From the NCBI GenBank assembly GCA_002780065.1, contig PEWQ01000034.1:1-9521 (forward strand): DNA of 9,521 nt, written 5' to 3'. Made by a program: the position numbers and the translations under genes. Every line of letters starts with the position of its first letter. The first letter of the stretch is position 1. The notes under the pieces were generated by a model. It made no database searches. It saw only the letters and a list, made by a program, of their open reading frames with translations, and had not been told where the DNA came from. This document shows positions 1,325 through 9,521 of this stretch, piece after piece. Source of the DNA: Candidatus Hydrogenedentes bacterium CG07_land_8_20_14_0_80_42_17. Its GTDB lineage: Bacteria > UBA8481.

Positions 1325-1338
1325 ATTACTGTTCGAAG

Positions 1339-1357
1339 TTCAGACTTCCTGAGCTCA
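1339..1357 (+). repeat. Left terminal inverted repeat of the IS
   Basis: TTCAGACTTCCTGAGCTCA pairs with the right end at 18 of 19 positions. It lies about 128 bases before the transposase start. Confidence 0.8.
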
Positions 1358-1428
1358 TTCTGAAATCAGCGTAGTTCCGCGCAACGCCCCGGAAGCGCCG
1401 CAGGCACTTTTTGCCGTATCAAATGTAT

Positions 1429-1493
1429 CGGCGGCATGGCAAACTTCACGAAGTCATTCGACATTTCAAAGGAGGAATTTTGCCATGCTACCG
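1429..1493 (+). promoter_or_regulatory. Hairpin sequestering the transposase start codon
   Basis: GCATGGCAAA (1434-1443) is the exact reverse complement of TTTGCCATGC (1479-1488). The stem extends with a G-U pair (1433/1489), one C-A mismatch and three more pairs (1429-1431 with 1491-1493). The ATG at 1485-1487 is inside the 3' arm, and the Shine-Dalgarno AAAGGAGG (1468-1475) is in the 35-base loop. A weaker competing arm, TTTGCC at 1410-1415, could pair with 1438-1443 and free the start codon. The structure should reduce translation initiation. Sequestered transposase starts are established for IS10 and IS50, though there in read-through transcripts. That this one works the same way is inference. 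Confidence 0.6.
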
Positions 1494-2003
1494 CAGTTGT
1501 TGCTGCCGGGATTTCCAGAAGGTTCAACGAGAATCGGCGATATATTGAGCATTTTGAACAAAGAGGGGCGCGTCACTTACTTTGTCGGTAGCGATAACTA
1601 CTTTTCCCATCCGGTTGGGGACGAACGGTCACGCAGATTCATTCTGGCGTCGCTCATGGAGAACGGCCATGTTCGTCCGTGCGATCTGGAGAGCGAGCCT
1701 TTGTGCATTCCGCATCGCACGCTCATGAACTGGACAAGCCGTCTACGAAATAAAGGCCCCGATTCTTTTTTTCGCGCGCGTAGCCGACAAAATCCTCGCG
1801 TGATGACGCCGGAAAATATCGCGAATTGCGCCAGTCTCTTTGCCGACGGAATGAGCGTATCCGATGTCGCAAAACACACCGGCATTGGGGAATCGACAAT
1901 TCGCAAGGCGGTGAAACGCAATGCCGTCAAAAAAAAACATCAAAAGGAAATTTCGGAGACATCGTCGGTACCGGCACGACAAAATCGGAACGTAGCCATG
2001 TAG
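1485..2003 (+). CDS. IS transposase ORF1: N-terminal helix-turn-helix protein (172 aa)
   Basis: This is the unshifted product of the transposase gene. ATG 1485 follows AAAGGAGG with nine bases between. Residues about 67-96 look like a first HTH (CIPHRTLMNWTSRLRNKGPDSFF), and residues about 112-146 form a second, resolvase-like HTH (FADGMSVSDVAKHTGIGEST then IRKAVKRN). These would bind the element's ends. The A-run at 1929-1937 encodes K149-K151. Beyond it this frame gives 21 more residues (HQKEISETS...) before TAG at 2001-2003, and these look like out-of-frame filler. Without the shift it yields a DNA-binding protein lacking the catalytic core, which in IS1 and IS3 elements acts as a transposition repressor. 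That role here is inference. Confidence 0.75.
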   Translation: MLPQLLLPGFPEGSTRIGDILSILNKEGRVTYFVGSDNYFSHPVGDERSRRFILASLMENGHVRPCDLESEPLCIPHRTLMNWTSRLRNKGPDSFFRARSRQNPRVMTPENIANCASLFADGMSVSDVAKHTGIGESTIRKAVKRNAVKKKHQKEISETSSVPARQNRNVAM

Positions 2004-3700
2004 ACGCTTCTGCGGCGGCAGGCATGGGAACGGCATGCACGCGTGTGGATGAACGCGTGGCGGCGGCCTTGGGCCTCGCGAAGTGCGCGACGGCTCATTT
2101 CGAACATTCTCGTGACGTGGACATGGGCGGTCTTCTGACCGGGTTGCCCGCATTGTGCGACAATGGGCTCTTGAGCGGGATCGACAAGCATGTCCATCTG
2201 CCGAAGGGGTTTTATAGCTGCCTTCACATTCTTATGACGATTGCGTTCATGGCGCTTGGGCGTATACGCCGTCCGGAAGGCCTCAGGCATATTTCACCGG
2301 GAGAATTTGGAAAAGTGATCGGGCTCGATCGCGTGCCCGAGGTGCGAACACTGCGAGAGAAAATCACCGAGATGGCTCACACGGGAACCCCGGAAGCATG
2401 GATGAAAGAACTCTCGAAAACATGGATGAACGACGATCCCGATGAGGCCGGTTACCTTTACGTCGACGGGCATGTTCGTGTGTATCACGGAAGCACGGCT
2501 GTGCTACCGCGTCGTTATGTTTCTCGTGAATTGCTTTGTCTGCGCGGAACTACGGACTATTGGGTTAACGACGCGCTTGGCCGCCCTTTCTTTGTTGTCT
2601 CCAAAGCCGTTACCGATGGTCTCGCGAATACGCTGCTGAACGATATTCTACCGGACCTGTTGACTTCCGTTCCTCGGCAGCCGTCACCGACGGAACTGGA
2701 AGCCGATCCGCTTCTGCATAAATTTGTAATCGTATTTGATCGTGAGGGCGCGACACACAGTCTGCTATCCGCGCTCTGGGAAAGCCGTGTCGGCGCCATC
2801 ACCTATCGAAAGAACGTCAGGGATGTCTGGCCGGAAAACGAGTTCATCGAAAATGAAGTCCCCGTGCCCGGCGGCGGAAATACATGCATGCAGCTGGCGA
2901 TGCGAGCGACGACGCTGACGGCGGGTGAGGCGTCCATTCCAGTCGTGGAGATTCGCCGTCTGACAGCAACCGGTCATCAGACCGCAGTGATCTGCACTGC
3001 GCGGCGCCTGGGAAATACGATCATCGCGGGCCGGATGTTTTCGAGGTGGTGTCAGGAAAACTTCTTTGCCTACATGATGGAACACTATGAAATCGATGGA
3101 CTTGTGCAGTACGGCGCCGAGGCTCTTCCGAGCACACTTTTGGTTATTAACCCAGCATGGAGCACTCTCAACAAGGCCGTCAAAATCTCTTACCGCGGCG
3201 TGAAGAAACTCCAGGCAAAACTTGGGGCGGAAGAAAGTCGTGAGGATGGCGCCGACATTCAAAAAAAGGCCGATTACGTTCAGGATATTCAAGCAGCGCA
3301 AGTTGACCTGGAGCAACTCCGCGCCGAACGCGCAAAGACGGAGAAAAAAGTGACGCTGGATTTGCTACCGGAAAATCAACGACCTACGCGGCTGTTGCCA
3401 TTGAACAAGCAACTGGCGGACACGGTGAAGATGATCGCATATCGCGCCGAGACGGCAATGGTGGCCATTCTGAGGCGACATCTGGCGAAGGAGGACGAAG
3501 CGCGCGCGCTGGTTCGGGAGCTGTTCGTATCGTCGGCGGATATCGAGCCTGACGAGACCGCTGGTACGCTCACGATCCGAATTCACAGAATGGCAAGCCC
3601 TGTTCACGACAAGGCCATCGCCTCACTCATGAAGGAACTGACCGAGCGAAAATTCTGCCATCCGGAAACAGGAGCGAAAATGGTTTACGTTCTCGCGTGA
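1485..3700 (+). CDS. Full-length DDE transposase made by -1 frameshift (about 738 aa)
   Basis: With a -1 shift at 1929-1937, the two HTH domains of ORF1 are joined to a 587-residue catalytic part that continues TSKGNFGDIV and then TTKSERSHVDASAAAGMG. The catalytic core is RNase-H-like. The first acidic residue is in YLYVDGHVRVYHG (D codon at 2465), the second in FVIVFDREG (D at 2738), and the third in MFSRWCQENFF (E at 3056). The R-x3-E arrangement recalls the C-terminal signature of IS4-superfamily enzymes, with the usual Y and K positions altered. A charged, coiled-coil-like segment follows (about 3200-3350, KKADYVQDIQAAQVDLEQLR). ORF2 alone has only a TTG at 1826 and no ribosome binding site, so it depends on ORF1. 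All three acidic residues are intact and ORF2 has no internal stops, which suggests a recently active element. Confidence 0.8.
1929..1937 (+). other. Nine-A slippery run joining the two transposase frames (-1)
   Basis: Nine consecutive A lie in the overlap of the two frames. In the ORF1 frame they read AAA AAA AAA CAT; in the -1 frame they read into ACA TCA, the sense frame of ORF2. A slip of -1, by ribosomal frameshifting or by polymerase slippage, yields the full transposase. A decayed one-base change would look identical in a single sequence. Confidence 0.7.
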
Positions 3701-3734
3701 CTTAATCCGGGAAAAGTGCCATTGCGGTTCGCAT

Positions 3735-3753
3735 TGAGTTCAGGAAGTCTGAA
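3735..3753 (-). repeat. Right terminal inverted repeat of the IS
   Basis: Read on the minus strand it begins TTCAGACTTCCTGAACTCA, matching the left end except for one base. It lies 35 bases after the transposase stop codon. Confidence 0.8.
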
Positions 3754-3802
3754 GTTGCAATGTTACATTAAACGGTAGACGTTTTTCACATCTTCTACGC
3801 AG

Positions 3803-3869
3803 ATTGTAAAATCAATGACTTTTCTATTGTAAAAAAAAAGTTGATGTAAAAAGGATTATGCATTATTCT
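3803..3869 (+). promoter_or_regulatory. AT-rich leader with candidate promoter for the surface-protein operon
   Basis: ATTGTAAAA occurs at 3803-3811 and again at 3826-3834 (23 bases apart), with a related ATGTAAAAA at 3844-3852, and a nine-A tract at 3831-3839. TTGATG (3841-3846) and TATTCT (3864-3869), 17 bases apart, form a weak promoter-like pair. It would start transcription only a few bases before the ATG at 3877, giving a nearly leaderless message. This is pattern matching and unproven. Confidence 0.25.
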
Positions 3870-3876
3870 TCTTTGT

Positions 3877-6800
3877 ATGCAGACAAGCGATATAATTGTA
3901 CGTAGCTATAGATATGTCTCATTCAACTCAACTGTTGTTTTTAAACGCATACTTTTTGTTATCTCTTTATTCGTATCATTAATCATCTTTGCTCCTATCA
4001 CCTACGCATCCTACAACTATGGTATCCTAACCGTTTCGTCGCATGACCCGTCGTTTGAGGGTGCAACTTTGAAATGGACATACACTGCTACCGGCTCTAC
4101 TTATGGCTCTACTACCGATCCTGCTATGGACGATTCGAAAACTTTTCGGAGTACTTCGTCAACTCTTTCGTATTCCGGACGGACATTGCGTAATAATGAA
4201 TTTGCATCTGTTGTAGAAGGGCACTCATACAAACTCGAGGTCGGATGGTATGCCTCCGGCACTGAGTGGATAGACAATCGGCTCGAACTCAATATCGAAT
4301 GGTATAATTCATCCGATAGTCTCATTTCAATCGGCACTGCCACTGATCTTGATCTGTCTTCTCAAAGCTCATGGGAATTGAAGACACTTTTCGATACCGC
4401 TCCGGCAGATGCAGTAAAAGCAAAAGTGCTTTTACGATGGCGGCGCACTACCGGTACGACCTCGGGCCGACAACAAAGTTTTGATCGCATTGCACTCCTC
4501 GATCTCACATCTCCGAATCCAAGACCGAATCCGCCAACGCTTTTGTCGCCAATTGACAATTCTGAAACGACAAATATATTTCCTGTCTTCTCATGGCTTC
4601 ATAACGATACAAATGCCTCTCCGCAGGCAATGTATCACCTCCAGATTTCTGCCGATTCGAGTTTTAATTCGATTCTCGCAGAAGACTCGGATCTCTCGAC
4701 AGAGACGATGCAACGGCTTCCCACCGGTTTGCCGACACCTGCAGATTCGGTTCTCTTCTGGCGGACTCGAACTTCGAATATTACAGATATTTTTTCGGAT
4801 TTTTCCGAGCCCGCCGCATTCCGACTGAATAATCTCGTTGCAAATCCGAGCTTTGAAAAGTGGACCGGGCCACTTGTGACCGACGACGCGGAAAGCTGGA
4901 CTAAGCTCAATAGCACAACAAATAATTACGTGAGGCAAACGAGCAATCCGCTTCACTCGGGCGCAAAAGCGCAGAAATTGCAAGCTCCAACAACTTCGTA
5001 TGCTCGCGGCGTGGAGACGAATAAAGACGAGTATTCTCCAGATGTAGAATACGGTCGAGGGTATCGAATTGGTGCATGGGCTCGAAAGAATAATTATCAG
5101 TTAACTCCAGATGCGTACCGGTTGCGTTTCGAATTTGACTGGTTCAATGAAACCGATACGCTCATTGCAACTTCGAGTATCGAAGAAGCATTCGATACTT
5201 TCGATGCGTGGACGCTCTTCGAGAGCGACACGCTTGTTGCACCCCCGGGGGCTATTGGAGCAAAGTTGCGGATTCAAGCAAAACGGGAGGGGGGGAGTTT
5301 GGAAAGCCTCGACCATCTGTACCTCGACGATGTATTTGCAACCGATCTTGGTGCGGCTGAATACATCAAACCCGGTACCCCGCAAAACCTAACTGTTGCC
5401 GGCAATCCATTTCAGAATGATCTCCGGTGGGATACTGCAACATCAGGCTCATTTCCAATATCAAACTTTCGGATATATCGCAGAACTGCTTCGGTGGAAT
5501 ATTCTCTTCTCGGAATCGCGCCTACAATAAACTATTCGGATACGAATGTAACTGTCGGAACAGAATACCAGTATGAGGTGCAAGCTGTGGATGTTGCCGG
5601 TGTTAGCGGCGATACATCTAATGAAGTCACAGTTGTGACGCAAGGATATGAGTACCCTCCCCCGCTTGGAACTAACATTCAGATCAACGAGATTATGTTT
5701 GATCCATCCGGTTCAGAACCGGCAAACGAGTGGGTAGAGCTCTACAACCCAACGGATACTCCAATCGCAATTGCCTCGTGGCTATTCGAAGACAATATTG
5801 CGATCTTCCGCATTCCTGAGAGCACTACAATCCCGGCAAAGGGGTATTTTGTTCTGGGATACAGCGTTACCTCGGCTGGAGGAAATGTAGACTTAATATA
5901 CGGAGCCAGCGTGCCGTCACTCAATCTTTCGAATTCAGGAGATACCGTAACGTTGCGAACCGACACTCAGCTTATCGATCAAATTGGATACAACACGAAT
6001 TGGGGCGGAGCGGAACCGAAGAGTTTATCACGCAAATTTTCCGGAAAATCGAGTCAGGATTACACGAACTGGGGGAGCTCTCAGGCGAGCGGCGGCACAC
6101 CGCGGGCGGTGAACGATGTTGATACGCTACCGCCATTGATCACACATACGCCTCCGTCACGAGTTGCCTGGCACCGTGATGTTGGCGTTCACTCAACGGT
6201 TACGGATAATGTGGATAAAGACATTGCTACCGAAAGTGTGAAGACGCGGTACCGTATTCCACCGAACACAACCTACTCCGAGATCACAATGTCACGCATT
6301 GCAGGAAGCACCTGGGACGGCGTAATTCCGGGAAGCGATGTAGATACTCCGATGCTAGAGTATTACATCGAGGCAAAGGACGCGTCGAACAACATTGGAA
6401 GATTTGCGGCACCTGATACTCCGCAACAGGTTTCTGTAGTTCAGATCGACACGAAATTGGTAATCAACGAAATTATGTACGACCCGGCAGGAGCAGAGCC
6501 AAACGAAGAATGGGTTGAATTATACAACTACGGCATAACAAACCTCGATCTCTCGGGCTGGCGATTCGGCGATGGCGAAGACATTTTTGTAATTCCGAAC
6601 GGCACTACAATCTTTGCCGACGGCTATCTCGTCTTAAAGCGAAGCGACTCCGCGGCACAGGGGGCGCCGGGCACCGGTATTAATTATGGCGATAGTGCAC
6701 CCGGCATTCAGTTTCAGAACATACTTGGCGAGATCACGGATCAAGCAATAATCTCAGATCCGACAGGACTCATTGTAGATGAAGTTAATTACTCTTCAAC

Positions 6801-7866
6801 GTGGGGTGCGAGTAATGTAAGAGGGCCAAATAATCTTACTCTTGAACGAATTTATCCTCAAGGCTCTTCAAATAACTCTTCAAATTGGCTCTACTCATAT
6901 CAACAAAATGGCACCACGGGCGAGACTAACACTTCGAAGATGGTGAGGAATGTATCAATCGAACCGAGCTATATCAATCCTCTGATCGGAGAGACCTCAG
7001 TCATTACCTTCGATGTGCTCGTGGACACAGAACCTGGCGATAACACAGCGGTAATCAAAGTGATAATACGTAATTATTCCGGCACAGCTATCAGAACAGT
7101 AACATTGGATGAAGCCTCGGCACCAGGCATTTATTCGAGAACATTCGTCTGGGACGGCACGAATGATGCCGGTGAGACGCGACTAGACGTTTTTAGAGTC
7201 GAAGTTAAAGTTCAGGATAAAAAAGGAGAAGTTTCGATTCAGAAGGTCGATGATCGTATGCTTCTCGGTTTCAACGATCGATATTCCGTAAATGATCTTT
7301 ACATCGGAAGCCGTCAGAAAGCGCTTACATACTACTTTACTGCCAGACCTGTTTTGATGTCTATTACAATAAACGATGCCGAGACAAATGTAGTGCGGCA
7401 TCTTCTCGATAGCGAAGCTGTTGGAGCTGGAAATCAGGTTGCAGTATGGGATGGCCGCCGTGACAATGGCTCATTCCACCTCGAAGGAACAACTTGGTCG
7501 TTCCAGGGACAGGGCTTTCCTTTCAATGCGTTGATCGCTTTGCCAAGATATCAGATTGCCGGGGAGACTTTGACTCCAAAAACTTATTTCAATCCTGATA
7601 TAGGTGAAAGCGTGACATTGTGGTATTTTCACGGAGATTCAGGACTTGTTTCAATAACTGTTCGTCGTGCAAAAGATGGAATGTTGATTCGAACACTCGC
7701 TACAAATATGCCGCACGATTTCGGTGAATACTCCTTGAATTGGGACGGAAAAGATAATGCTGAGGCTATTGTTCCTTCCGGGAAATATTTAATTGTGCTC
7801 GATGGGGTCACAAGTGATGTCTGGCAGAAGAGTCGTCTTCTGGAAGAGATAGAGGTGCGAAGATGA
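3877..7866 (+). CDS. Exported multidomain surface protein with two lamin-tail domains and C-terminal FlgD-Ig-like repeats (1329 aa)
   Basis: An N-terminal export signal is visible (KRILFVISLFVSLIIFAP core, likely cleavage after ITYA-44), though its n-region is long. Modules, by approximate residue: 45-215 jelly-roll/CBM-like; 219-318 Fn3-like (YHLQISADSSF); 320-490 second jelly-roll-like (NPSFEKW...LYLDDVF); 498-588 Fn3 (PGTPQNLTV...YQYEVQAVD); 602-745 lamin-tail domain (INEIMFDPSG...NEWVELYNP); 749-852 Ig/Fn3-like (MLEYYIEAKDASNN); 862-1008 second lamin-tail domain (INEIMYDPAG...EEWVELYNY); 1022-1329 three FlgD-Ig-like repeats (VWDGTNDAG, VWDGRRDNG, NWDGKDNAE). No catalytic motif, LPXTG or Por-type tail is seen. 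The role is probably adhesion, glycan binding or scaffolding outside the cell. No Shine-Dalgarno precedes the ATG. The gene overlaps the RHS gene by ATGA. Confidence 0.88.
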   Translation: MQTSDIIVRSYRYVSFNSTVVFKRILFVISLFVSLIIFAPITYASYNYGILTVSSHDPSFEGATLKWTYTATGSTYGSTTDPAMDDSKTFRSTSSTLSYSGRTLRNNEFASVVEGHSYKLEVGWYASGTEWIDNRLELNIEWYNSSDSLISIGTATDLDLSSQSSWELKTLFDTAPADAVKAKVLLRWRRTTGTTSGRQQSFDRIALLDLTSPNPRPNPPTLLSPIDNSETTNIFPVFSWLHNDTNASPQAMYHLQISADSSFNSILAEDSDLSTETMQRLPTGLPTPADSVLFWRTRTSNITDIFSDFSEPAAFRLNNLVANPSFEKWTGPLVTDDAESWTKLNSTTNNYVRQTSNPLHSGAKAQKLQAPTTSYARGVETNKDEYSPDVEYGRGYRIGAWARKNNYQLTPDAYRLRFEFDWFNETDTLIATSSIEEAFDTFDAWTLFESDTLVAPPGAIGAKLRIQAKREGGSLESLDHLYLDDVFATDLGAAEYIKPGTPQNLTVAGNPFQNDLRWDTATSGSFPISNFRIYRRTASVEYSLLGIAPTINYSDTNVTVGTEYQYEVQAVDVAGVSGDTSNEVTVVTQGYEYPPPLGTNIQINEIMFDPSGSEPANEWVELYNPTDTPIAIASWLFEDNIAIFRIPESTTIPAKGYFVLGYSVTSAGGNVDLIYGASVPSLNLSNSGDTVTLRTDTQLIDQIGYNTNWGGAEPKSLSRKFSGKSSQDYTNWGSSQASGGTPRAVNDVDTLPPLITHTPPSRVAWHRDVGVHSTVTDNVDKDIATESVKTRYRIPPNTTYSEITMSRIAGSTWDGVIPGSDVDTPMLEYYIEAKDASNNIGRFAAPDTPQQVSVVQIDTKLVINEIMYDPAGAEPNEEWVELYNYGITNLDLSGWRFGDGEDIFVIPNGTTIFADGYLVLKRSDSAAQGAPGTGINYGDSAPGIQFQNILGEITDQAIISDPTGLIVDEVNYSSTWGASNVRGPNNLTLERIYPQGSSNNSSNWLYSYQQNGTTGETNTSKMVRNVSIEPSYINPLIGETSVITFDVLVDTEPGDNTAVIKVIIRNYSGTAIRTVTLDEASAPGIYSRTFVWDGTNDAGETRLDVFRVEVKVQDKKGEVSIQKVDDRMLLGFNDRYSVNDLYIGSRQKALTYYFTARPVLMSITINDAETNVVRHLLDSEAVGAGNQVAVWDGRRDNGSFHLEGTTWSFQGQGFPFNALIALPRYQIAGETLTPKTYFNPDIGESVTLWYFHGDSGLVSITVRRAKDGMLIRTLATNMPHDFGEYSLNWDGKDNAEAIVPSGKYLIVLDGVTSDVWQKSRLLEEIEVRR

Positions 7867-9521
7867 TACGCTTGAAACGCTTCTGCTTTGTGTTAGGAAT
7901 GCTTCTTACTTTTGTTGTATTTGCGCAGGCAGGAGAAGAACATCCAACTCCATTGTCGAATCCACCTCCATCTGAAGAGCCACCACCGTGTGAGAATCAT
8001 ATCGAAATAGTAAACGGCGCGCTAGTTCATGTTTTGCGTGATTTATATGTACCGGGGCTTGAACCTGAATTTCGGCTTATCAGAACTTATCGTAGTCAAC
8101 AACTAAGTGACGGTTTTTTTGGAAAAGGCTGGCACACAATTTTCAATTCCAGAATCAGCGTTTTTACGACAAAAAGATACGTGCCAAGATTCGTGTCACT
8201 ACCATCATCACTACTTTCACCTTCAGTAGCAAAACTTCAAATAGAAAACGAGAAAAAAAATCAAATTCAACTCGTATACAATTTTAATAACTCGAGACAA
8301 CAAGAAAATGGAATAGAATCAATTCGAAGCGACTATCCATTATTGCTCGTTGAAGATTCAAAAGAATCTGCAATTTCAACCGAACCACTGATGCTCGCTG
8401 ATCAAGGCGCCCCGGCTGGTGCTGTTGATAATGGTCCCATCGAAATTATTGAAGTTTATTATACGATCTATCTACCAGATGGAACGATCAGAACATTCAA
8501 AGCTTCTACTAATATTTTTTATTCTCCGGTTTCACCTACTTCCTCTCCAGGCACACTCGGTCGATTAATTGCTTCTGATACTGATTACAGTTTTGTTGAA
8601 GCAGGTTCACGACTCGAATACCACTTTAGCAAGTCAACCAAATACCTTACCTCAATCACAACACCGGAAGGCAACGCCCTAATTATCAATCGCGACGAAA
8701 AGGGGAATCCAACATCGGTTGTCGATGCCGCAGGTCGAACCTATACAATTACAACTTCAAATGGAAAAATTACTAGTATCACGGATCACACCGGCAGAGT
8801 CTTCTCGTATGAATACAACATAAGTGGATTGTTGTCGCGCGTGTCGGCTCCTGAAAATCAAATTACCGAATATTCATATAACAGCGCCGCCCGACTCTCT
8901 CAAATCAATTTTCCAAATGGAGGTATCAGACACTACATTTACTCCGGCAAGCGAGTGATTCGGCGCATCGACGAGGTCGGTGGCGTTCAGGAATTTCAAT
9001 ACGATACTTCAACACCATCCGACGGAACTCCACGCACTAATATTCATACCGATGCCAGAGGCAATAAATGGTTCCAAACTTTTGATGCTGACGGCAACCT
9101 CCTTTTTGAAGTTGATCCGTATGGTGAAACTACAACATACACTTATGATGGTAATCGACGAATGACTTCGAAGACTATGCCTGACGGCGCCATATATCGC
9201 TGGGAATACAACCAGAATGGCTTCAAGACCACCGAAATCCTGCCTGACAGCAGAATTAAGTATTTTGTGTTCGATGCAAGAGGAATAATTCTTGCTGAGA
9301 CTAATGCTCTCAGTGAAGTAATGCAATATTCGTATGACACGTATTACAGGCTAACGAAAATACGGCATCCGGACGGCTCAGAGGAAAATTCCGAATACAA
9401 TTTGCTCGGGCTTCGGACATCATATTCTCTGCCCGGAAAACCTGCGACTACTACTACTTACGATCAGTATGGTCTGCTCGATCTTGTGACTGACCCGAAC
9501 GGAAAGACATGGGATTACGAT
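7863..9521 (+). CDS. Exported RHS/YD-repeat protein, 5' part (at least 553 aa)
   Basis: The ATG (7863-7865) overlaps the TGA of the preceding gene, implying translational coupling. The frame is open to the window edge, so the C-terminus is missing. Residues 1-23 are a signal peptide ending FAQA. A proline-rich linker follows (LSNPPPSEEPPPC, to about 45). Then comes an RHS N-terminal (DUF6531-like) segment, DLYVPGLEPEFRLIRTYRSQ followed by DGFFGKGW. Residues about 105-165 are a polar, Ser/Asn/Gln-rich insertion. From about 240 onward degenerate YD repeats run to the edge (HTGRVFSYEYN, ENQITEYSYNS, YGETTTYTYDG, DGAIYRWEYNQ, SEVMQYSYDTY). RHS proteins form hollow beta-shells that in many cases enclose a C-terminal toxin; whether this one does cannot be seen here. 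The partner is likely the upstream LTD/FlgD protein. Confidence 0.92.
   Translation, partial: MIRLKRFCFVLGMLLTFVVFAQAGEEHPTPLSNPPPSEEPPPCENHIEIVNGALVHVLRDLYVPGLEPEFRLIRTYRSQQLSDGFFGKGWHTIFNSRISVFTTKRYVPRFVSLPSSLLSPSVAKLQIENEKKNQIQLVYNFNNSRQQENGIESIRSDYPLLLVEDSKESAISTEPLMLADQGAPAGAVDNGPIEIIEVYYTIYLPDGTIRTFKASTNIFYSPVSPTSSPGTLGRLIASDTDYSFVEAGSRLEYHFSKSTKYLTSITTPEGNALIINRDEKGNPTSVVDAAGRTYTITTSNGKITSITDHTGRVFSYEYNISGLLSRVSAPENQITEYSYNSAARLSQINFPNGGIRHYIYSGKRVIRRIDEVGGVQEFQYDTSTPSDGTPRTNIHTDARGNKWFQTFDADGNLLFEVDPYGETTTYTYDGNRRMTSKTMPDGAIYRWEYNQNGFKTTEILPDSRIKYFVFDARGIILAETNALSEVMQYSYDTYYRLTKIRHPDGSEENSEYNLLGLRTSYSLPGKPATTTTYDQYGLLDLVTDPNGKTWDYD

Follow-up and report, generated by a model that had tools for sequence, protein, structure and literature searches.

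Ribosomal −1 frameshifting is used by many IS3 and IS1 elements. Slippage at runs of nine adenines (A9) is likewise already known in insertion sequences, according to the passages on such runs in four published sources (PMC1088944, PMC3711429, PMC5009743, PMC6211511), two of which describe it as efficient for bacterial RNA polymerase (PMC5009743; PMC1088944). The IS3-family element IS1447 of Clostridium thermocellum has an A9 run and an ORF1/ORF2 split, and slippage at its run has been measured at about 16% in each direction (PMC6211511). Baranov et al. 2005 lists A9 elements from Deinococcus, Nostoc, Mesorhizobium, Streptococcus, and Sulfolobus, with a conserved run of 8 or 9 A at the ORF split and transcriptional slippage as the proposed mechanism; the passages on these elements do not name their families (PMC1088944). 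For IS630 and DDE_Tnp_1 clusters, the relevant sections of Antonov et al. 2013 report both frame offsets at poly(A) within one family and take mixed offsets as the criterion for transcriptional realignment versus ribosomal frameshifting (PMC3711429).

We analyzed a stretch of 9,521 nucleotides (the window) from Candidatus Hydrogenedentes bacterium CG07_land_8_20_14_0_80_42_17, which carries a transposase of the Pfam family PF21804 divided between two frames at an A9 run (Table 1). We consider it likely that this transposase is restored by programmed slippage at A9, with transcriptional slippage the best candidate. The locus resembles IS1447 in its run and its split, whereas IS1447 encodes an IS3-family transposase and gains its functional product by +1 slippage (PMC6211511). 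It resembles the Baranov et al. elements in the run at the ORF split; unlike those elements as they are described there, PF21804 includes intact members alongside split ones, has T runs as well as A runs, and places them at two or three positions (PMC1088944). Both offsets occur at poly(A) in PF21804, as in the Antonov et al. clusters, although those belong to other transposase families, and the sections on them do not name PF21804 (PMC3711429).

The window element is a complete insertion sequence. Its terminal inverted repeats have 29-nt arms that are 83% complementary, with 24 nt of each within the element. AAGTT flanks the element intact on both sides, and 5-bp duplications also occur in relatives from Candidatus Accumulibacter sp. 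ACC003 and from a planctomycete genome (G1004). Because a dozen near-identical copies of the ACC003 relative share this arrangement and have target duplications of 5 bp, the AAGTT pair is read as a target duplication. Positions 3877 to 9521, beside the element, encode two proteins: one of 1329 aa that carries Lamin Tail and FlgD-Ig domains, and after it one with RHS repeats that is truncated where the contig ends. On the minus strand, positions 29 to 313 encode a short helix-turn-helix (HTH) protein (HTH_28, HTH_23) that resembles the N-terminal piece of another transposase. A second A9 run (3831 to 3839) is intergenic, lies about 75 nt past the element, and shows no sign of use.

Table 1. Features of the insertion sequence in the window (positions are those of the window).
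Feature	Position	Strand	Comment
Target-site duplication, left copy AAGTT	1336-1340	.	Matches 3752-3756 exactly
Complete insertion sequence, 2411 bp	1341-3751	+	Ends CAGACTTCC...GGAAGTCTG
Left terminal inverted repeat	1341-1364	+	24 nt of the 29-nt arm, whose 5 outermost nt form the target duplication
Inverted repeat, arms 1429-1447 and 1475-1493	1429-1493	+	z −3.8
GGAGG ribosome-binding site of ORF1	1471-1475	+	From the sequence
ORF1, 172 aa, frame 3	1485-2003	+	Two HTH regions: about aa 71-108 (weak) and aa 117-145 (strong)
ORF2 open frame, frame 2, −1 to ORF1	1784-3700	+	Used part begins right after A9
A9 slippery run, putative frame-crossing site	1929-1937	+	AAA AAA AAA codons in the ORF1 frame
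Catalytic PF21804 domain of ORF2	about 2027-3694	+
First putative catalytic Asp (YVDGH), ORF2 D176	2465-2467	+	Invariant in 33 members; role suggested by the Tn5-like fold
Second putative catalytic Asp (FDREG), ORF2 D267	2738-2740	+	Role suggested by the fold
Putative catalytic Glu (SRWCQENFF; R-x3-E), ORF2 E373	3056-3058	+	Role suggested by the fold
Right terminal inverted repeat	3728-3751	+
Target-site duplication, right copy AAGTT	3752-3756	.

The run has exactly nine A, as originally predicted, and it is the only homopolymer of ≥8 in the coding region, the ORF1/ORF2 overlap included. This 2.39-Mb genome has 50 exact A9 runs on each strand, so that about 0.005 would be expected per 220-nt overlap. 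The −1 relation of the two frames also holds; their overlap, said to lie exactly at A9, in fact extends over 220 nt of open frame. Pfam places the HTHs in ORF1 and the whole of PF21804 in ORF2, in agreement with the predicted division into an HTH part and an entire DDE core. In the intact relatives, a single ORF of about 735 to 745 aa spans both parts. Residues 1 to 148 of an intact relative align to ORF1 and those from 165 onward to ORF2; since each ORF aligns to successive stretches of that relative, the two are parts of one protein, as had been proposed. The original prediction was also right that ORF2 lacks a start signal of its own: its frame offers a single ATG, GTG, or TTG in the stretch from A9 to the conserved catalytic domain, namely ATG 2024, and this candidate lies downstream of the conserved ORF2 residues R18 (1991) and D22 (2003).

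ORF2 matched PF21804 (Transposase_29) with an E value of 1e-161 and 539 bits (cut-off, 27) over positions 1 to 560 of 562. Expression through such a run was said at the outset not to be known for a transposase with the YVDGHVRVYHG core; the core belongs to this named family, and no earlier report of slippage for PF21804 was found in the literature. A full-text literature search found no paper that names PF21804 or Transposase_29 as a transposase family (the one match was an unrelated chromatin paper), and the elements may carry a family name in ISfinder. A sequence search of solved structures gave only weak matches; the best of them paired the HTH part with a CRISPR repeat-binding protein (2lvs; E = 1.5e-4).

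The AlphaFold model of an intact relative (L007; mean pLDDT, 84) comprises the HTH part, a low-confidence stretch at residues 154 to 161, and then the catalytic part. A9 falls in this low-confidence stretch, a probably flexible linker that joins the DNA-binding part to the catalytic part. The catalytic part of the model matched Tn5 transposase (Foldseek E, 2.9e-8; Z, 18.4 over 312 residues; rmsd, 4.5; identity, 11%), and other transposases and integrases scored Z values of 8 to 14. D176, D267, and E373 of ORF2 are invariant, and by their Tn5-like placement in the model (strand, strand end, and helix) they are the putative DDE triad. The family is like Tn5 (IS50/IS4 group) in having a DDE catalytic fold with a beta insertion and in retaining R-x3-E here; it is unlike Tn5, a single ORF, in that its members carry an N-terminal pair of HTHs. 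The IS4 family signature is Y-2-R-3-E-6-K, and here R369 and E373 are kept and the Y and K positions are Met, so the full signature is absent.

Relatives were collected by a scan of 85,000 species genomes, which gave 80 loci, and by whole-genome searches that added more (an r in a locus name marks a locus read on the other strand). Viral contigs and phage records gave no match, and plasmids gave one weak Streptomyces match that was of no help on the split. Counting the window, 22 split members have a run where the frames cross. In 15 of these the run is A8 or A9 at the HTH-DDE linker (the window, L005, L062, L067, L068, L097r, L110r, L124r, L139r, L140, L141r, L142r, L150r, L162, and L172r); in one Bacteroidota clade it is a T8 at a different place, between the two HTHs (L071 to L074, L076, and L138); and in L075 it is an A8 at a third place. 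Persistence of an A run of 8 to 10 with a frame split, proposed at the outset as the check, is therefore seen among relatives: members from several phyla have A8 or A9 at this linker. In L076, a further frame change lies downstream at a C7 run (positions 2934 to 2990; ACCCCCCCAAACCC), which marks either a broken element or a second slip site.

Most members whose identity to ORF2 is 65 to 70% are intact, and their linker lacks a run. Close single-ORF relatives lacking the run, named at the outset as grounds for rejecting the reading, thus exist at that distance; a split at A8 or A9 is found instead in the closest relative (75%) and in many that are more distant. Because of these split relatives, the trait is polymorphic in the family rather than an error. 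About 30 near-identical intact single-ORF copies (L015 to L047) are present in the ACC003 genome; these copies are a transposition burst by a version without slippage control. Many short or contig-end fragments were found as within-genome repeats in other genomes (L112; L114 to L123, G374; L168 to L171, G886; L106 to L109, G186). These match only the last 30 to 35 residues of PF21804 and are perhaps small derivatives that keep the right end.

The runs coincide with the frame crossings. Among the automatically scored split members, the overlap holds a run (A8-A9 or T8) in 18 of 18, and the overlaps, which make up 3.7% of coding length, contain 18 of the 26 runs of ≥8 (p = 1.6e-20, a value that overstates the number of independent events, though not the pattern, as related sequences are not independent). 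Intact single-ORF members (n = 33) have one run of ≥8 in 73.5 kb.

The frame offset is −1 in 16 of the 22 split members and +1 in the other 6 (L005, L072, L075, L124r, L139r, and L150r). It differs even within a sister pair that keeps A9 in both members, being −1 in the window and +1 in its closest relative, L005. The run had been predicted to allow either ribosomal −1 frameshifting or transcriptional slippage; a −1 offset was confirmed for the window copy, but it is not constant in the family. No stem-loop was found in the 70 nt past the run at 21 sites (mean z, +0.2; none below −2; window, +1.3; the scoring covers simple stem-loops). In IS1447 a stem-loop precedes the run, whereas the PF21804 set was scored for downstream stem-loops only (PMC6211511). 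Transcriptional slippage is favored over ribosomal −1 frameshifting because −1 and +1 offsets are mixed and a downstream stem-loop is lacking.

Production of the fusion by ribosomal −1 frameshifting on A_AAA_AAA within the run is nevertheless the strongest of the alternatives, although we regard it as unlikely. Whichever of the observed codon phases it is in, the run contains a heptamer slippery for −1 shifts, −1 members have A_AAA_AAA in the ORF1 frame, and these members are the majority. Against this stand the +1 members, with the closest relative among them, the lack of downstream stem-loops in the set, and a run that is usually nine long when a heptamer suffices for ribosomes. A ribosomal contribution in the −1 members, including the window copy, is possible.

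That the window copy is a transposase broken by an indel at a mutational hot spot, or that the run contains a sequencing error, is very improbable. Homopolymers are indel hot spots, intact relatives exist, and some members are clearly decayed (L070, L077, and L083). However, intact relatives have almost no long run to serve as a hot spot, the same state recurs in many independent assemblies, two transposed copies in one genome keep A9, and the run has stayed in place over near-saturated synonymous divergence with both frames under selection. Indels do evidently also occur in PF21804, since at least four and up to six other members, L077, L083, L164, and L177r among them, are out of frame with no run of ≥8 and look decayed or unclear. 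These four were set aside, as was L070, which has C8 and A8 runs and an in-frame stop; the T7 of L164 is inconsistent with the frame crossing.

Separate translation of ORF2, by internal initiation or reinitiation at ATG 2024, with the transposase acting as a two-protein complex, would fit the position of this ATG 20 nt past the ORF1 stop (2001 to 2003) and the start of Pfam PF21804 near it, but we give it hardly any credence: KSERS, R18, and D22 upstream of the ATG are conserved in the ORF2 frame in split and intact members, the Met is absent in L140, L141r, L142r, and L162, and the homopolymer at every split is left unexplained. In the 14 members checked, no start codon lies between the run and KSERS in the ORF2 frame, and KSERS itself, ahead of the only ATG, is conserved; on these grounds internal initiation is disfavored, and an internal start for ORF2 was rejected.

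The split elements move. In the single-contig genome of a member of the Planctomycetota (G1004), two A9-split copies, both full length, share 99.75% identity and are flanked by different target duplications, each a perfect 5 bp (AGATT and AATTT), and a third, partial copy has the same junction. In split pairs, both ORF1 and ORF2 are under purifying selection (pN/pS, 0.13 to 0.37), with dS about 1 to 3 or saturated. The A run is kept even though its Lys codons could be AAG without cost to the protein. In the genome of the window, no second copy of the element covering the junction was found. That genome does contain a solitary 56-bp left end, 98% identical, between two direct repeats of ~33 bp (L003, 1501 to 1556, contig C63), and an 81-bp fragment identical to the ORF2 interior (L002, 1501 to 1581, contig C65); the latter stops at the contig end, and a second, unassembled or truncated copy therefore exists.

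Split members occupy four separate positions in a tree built from 57 ORF2 proteins. The window groups with L005 and L124r, with weak support (80/63), inside a clade of 20 that is intact apart from these three. When the 21 split rows were constrained to one clade, the tree was rejected (AU p = 2.4e-5), and with it a single origin of the split state. Because relatives at 65 to 70% identity are intact, the split device appears to have been gained or lost repeatedly, and the tree does not tell gain from loss. We offer as a tentative reading, about which we are nearly evenly divided but lean toward doubt, that slippage-dependent expression was gained (or lost) several times in PF21804, with the slip site moving among three places (the HTH-DDE linker for A8-A9, the stretch between the HTHs for T8, and a third place for the A8 of L075) and the offset switching between −1 and +1, so that selection would favor the slip itself and not one inherited site.

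Silencing of read-through transcripts by a hairpin at the start of the transposase gene has been described for IS10 and IS50. In the window element, the inverted repeat at 1429 to 1493 brackets the ORF1 ribosome-binding site and start codon and would pair both in read-through transcripts. Comparably strong hairpins occur at the ORF1 start in L009, L011, L013, L035, L036, and L055 (z, −3.3 to −5.8), and the mean z is −1.9 (n = 28). Such a hairpin could, by analogy, silence read-through transcripts.

From these comparisons we infer that slippage occurs, that it is transcriptional, and that it has a regulatory role. RNA polymerase would stutter on A9 and produce a mixed mRNA pool. Messages with nine A would give only the short HTH protein (ORF1, presumably an end-binding product or regulator), and those with one extra A, or two fewer, would give the fused HTH and DDE transposase. 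Since the slip point is in the linker, a one-residue change should be tolerated. How much transposase is made would then be set by how often slippage occurs.

PF21804, which is widespread, would thereby join the transposase families in which slippage during transcription probably determines the transposase level. Automatic annotation may list its split transposases as broken genes. The coexistence of split and intact members in one family would allow a direct comparison of the cost and benefit of slippage control.
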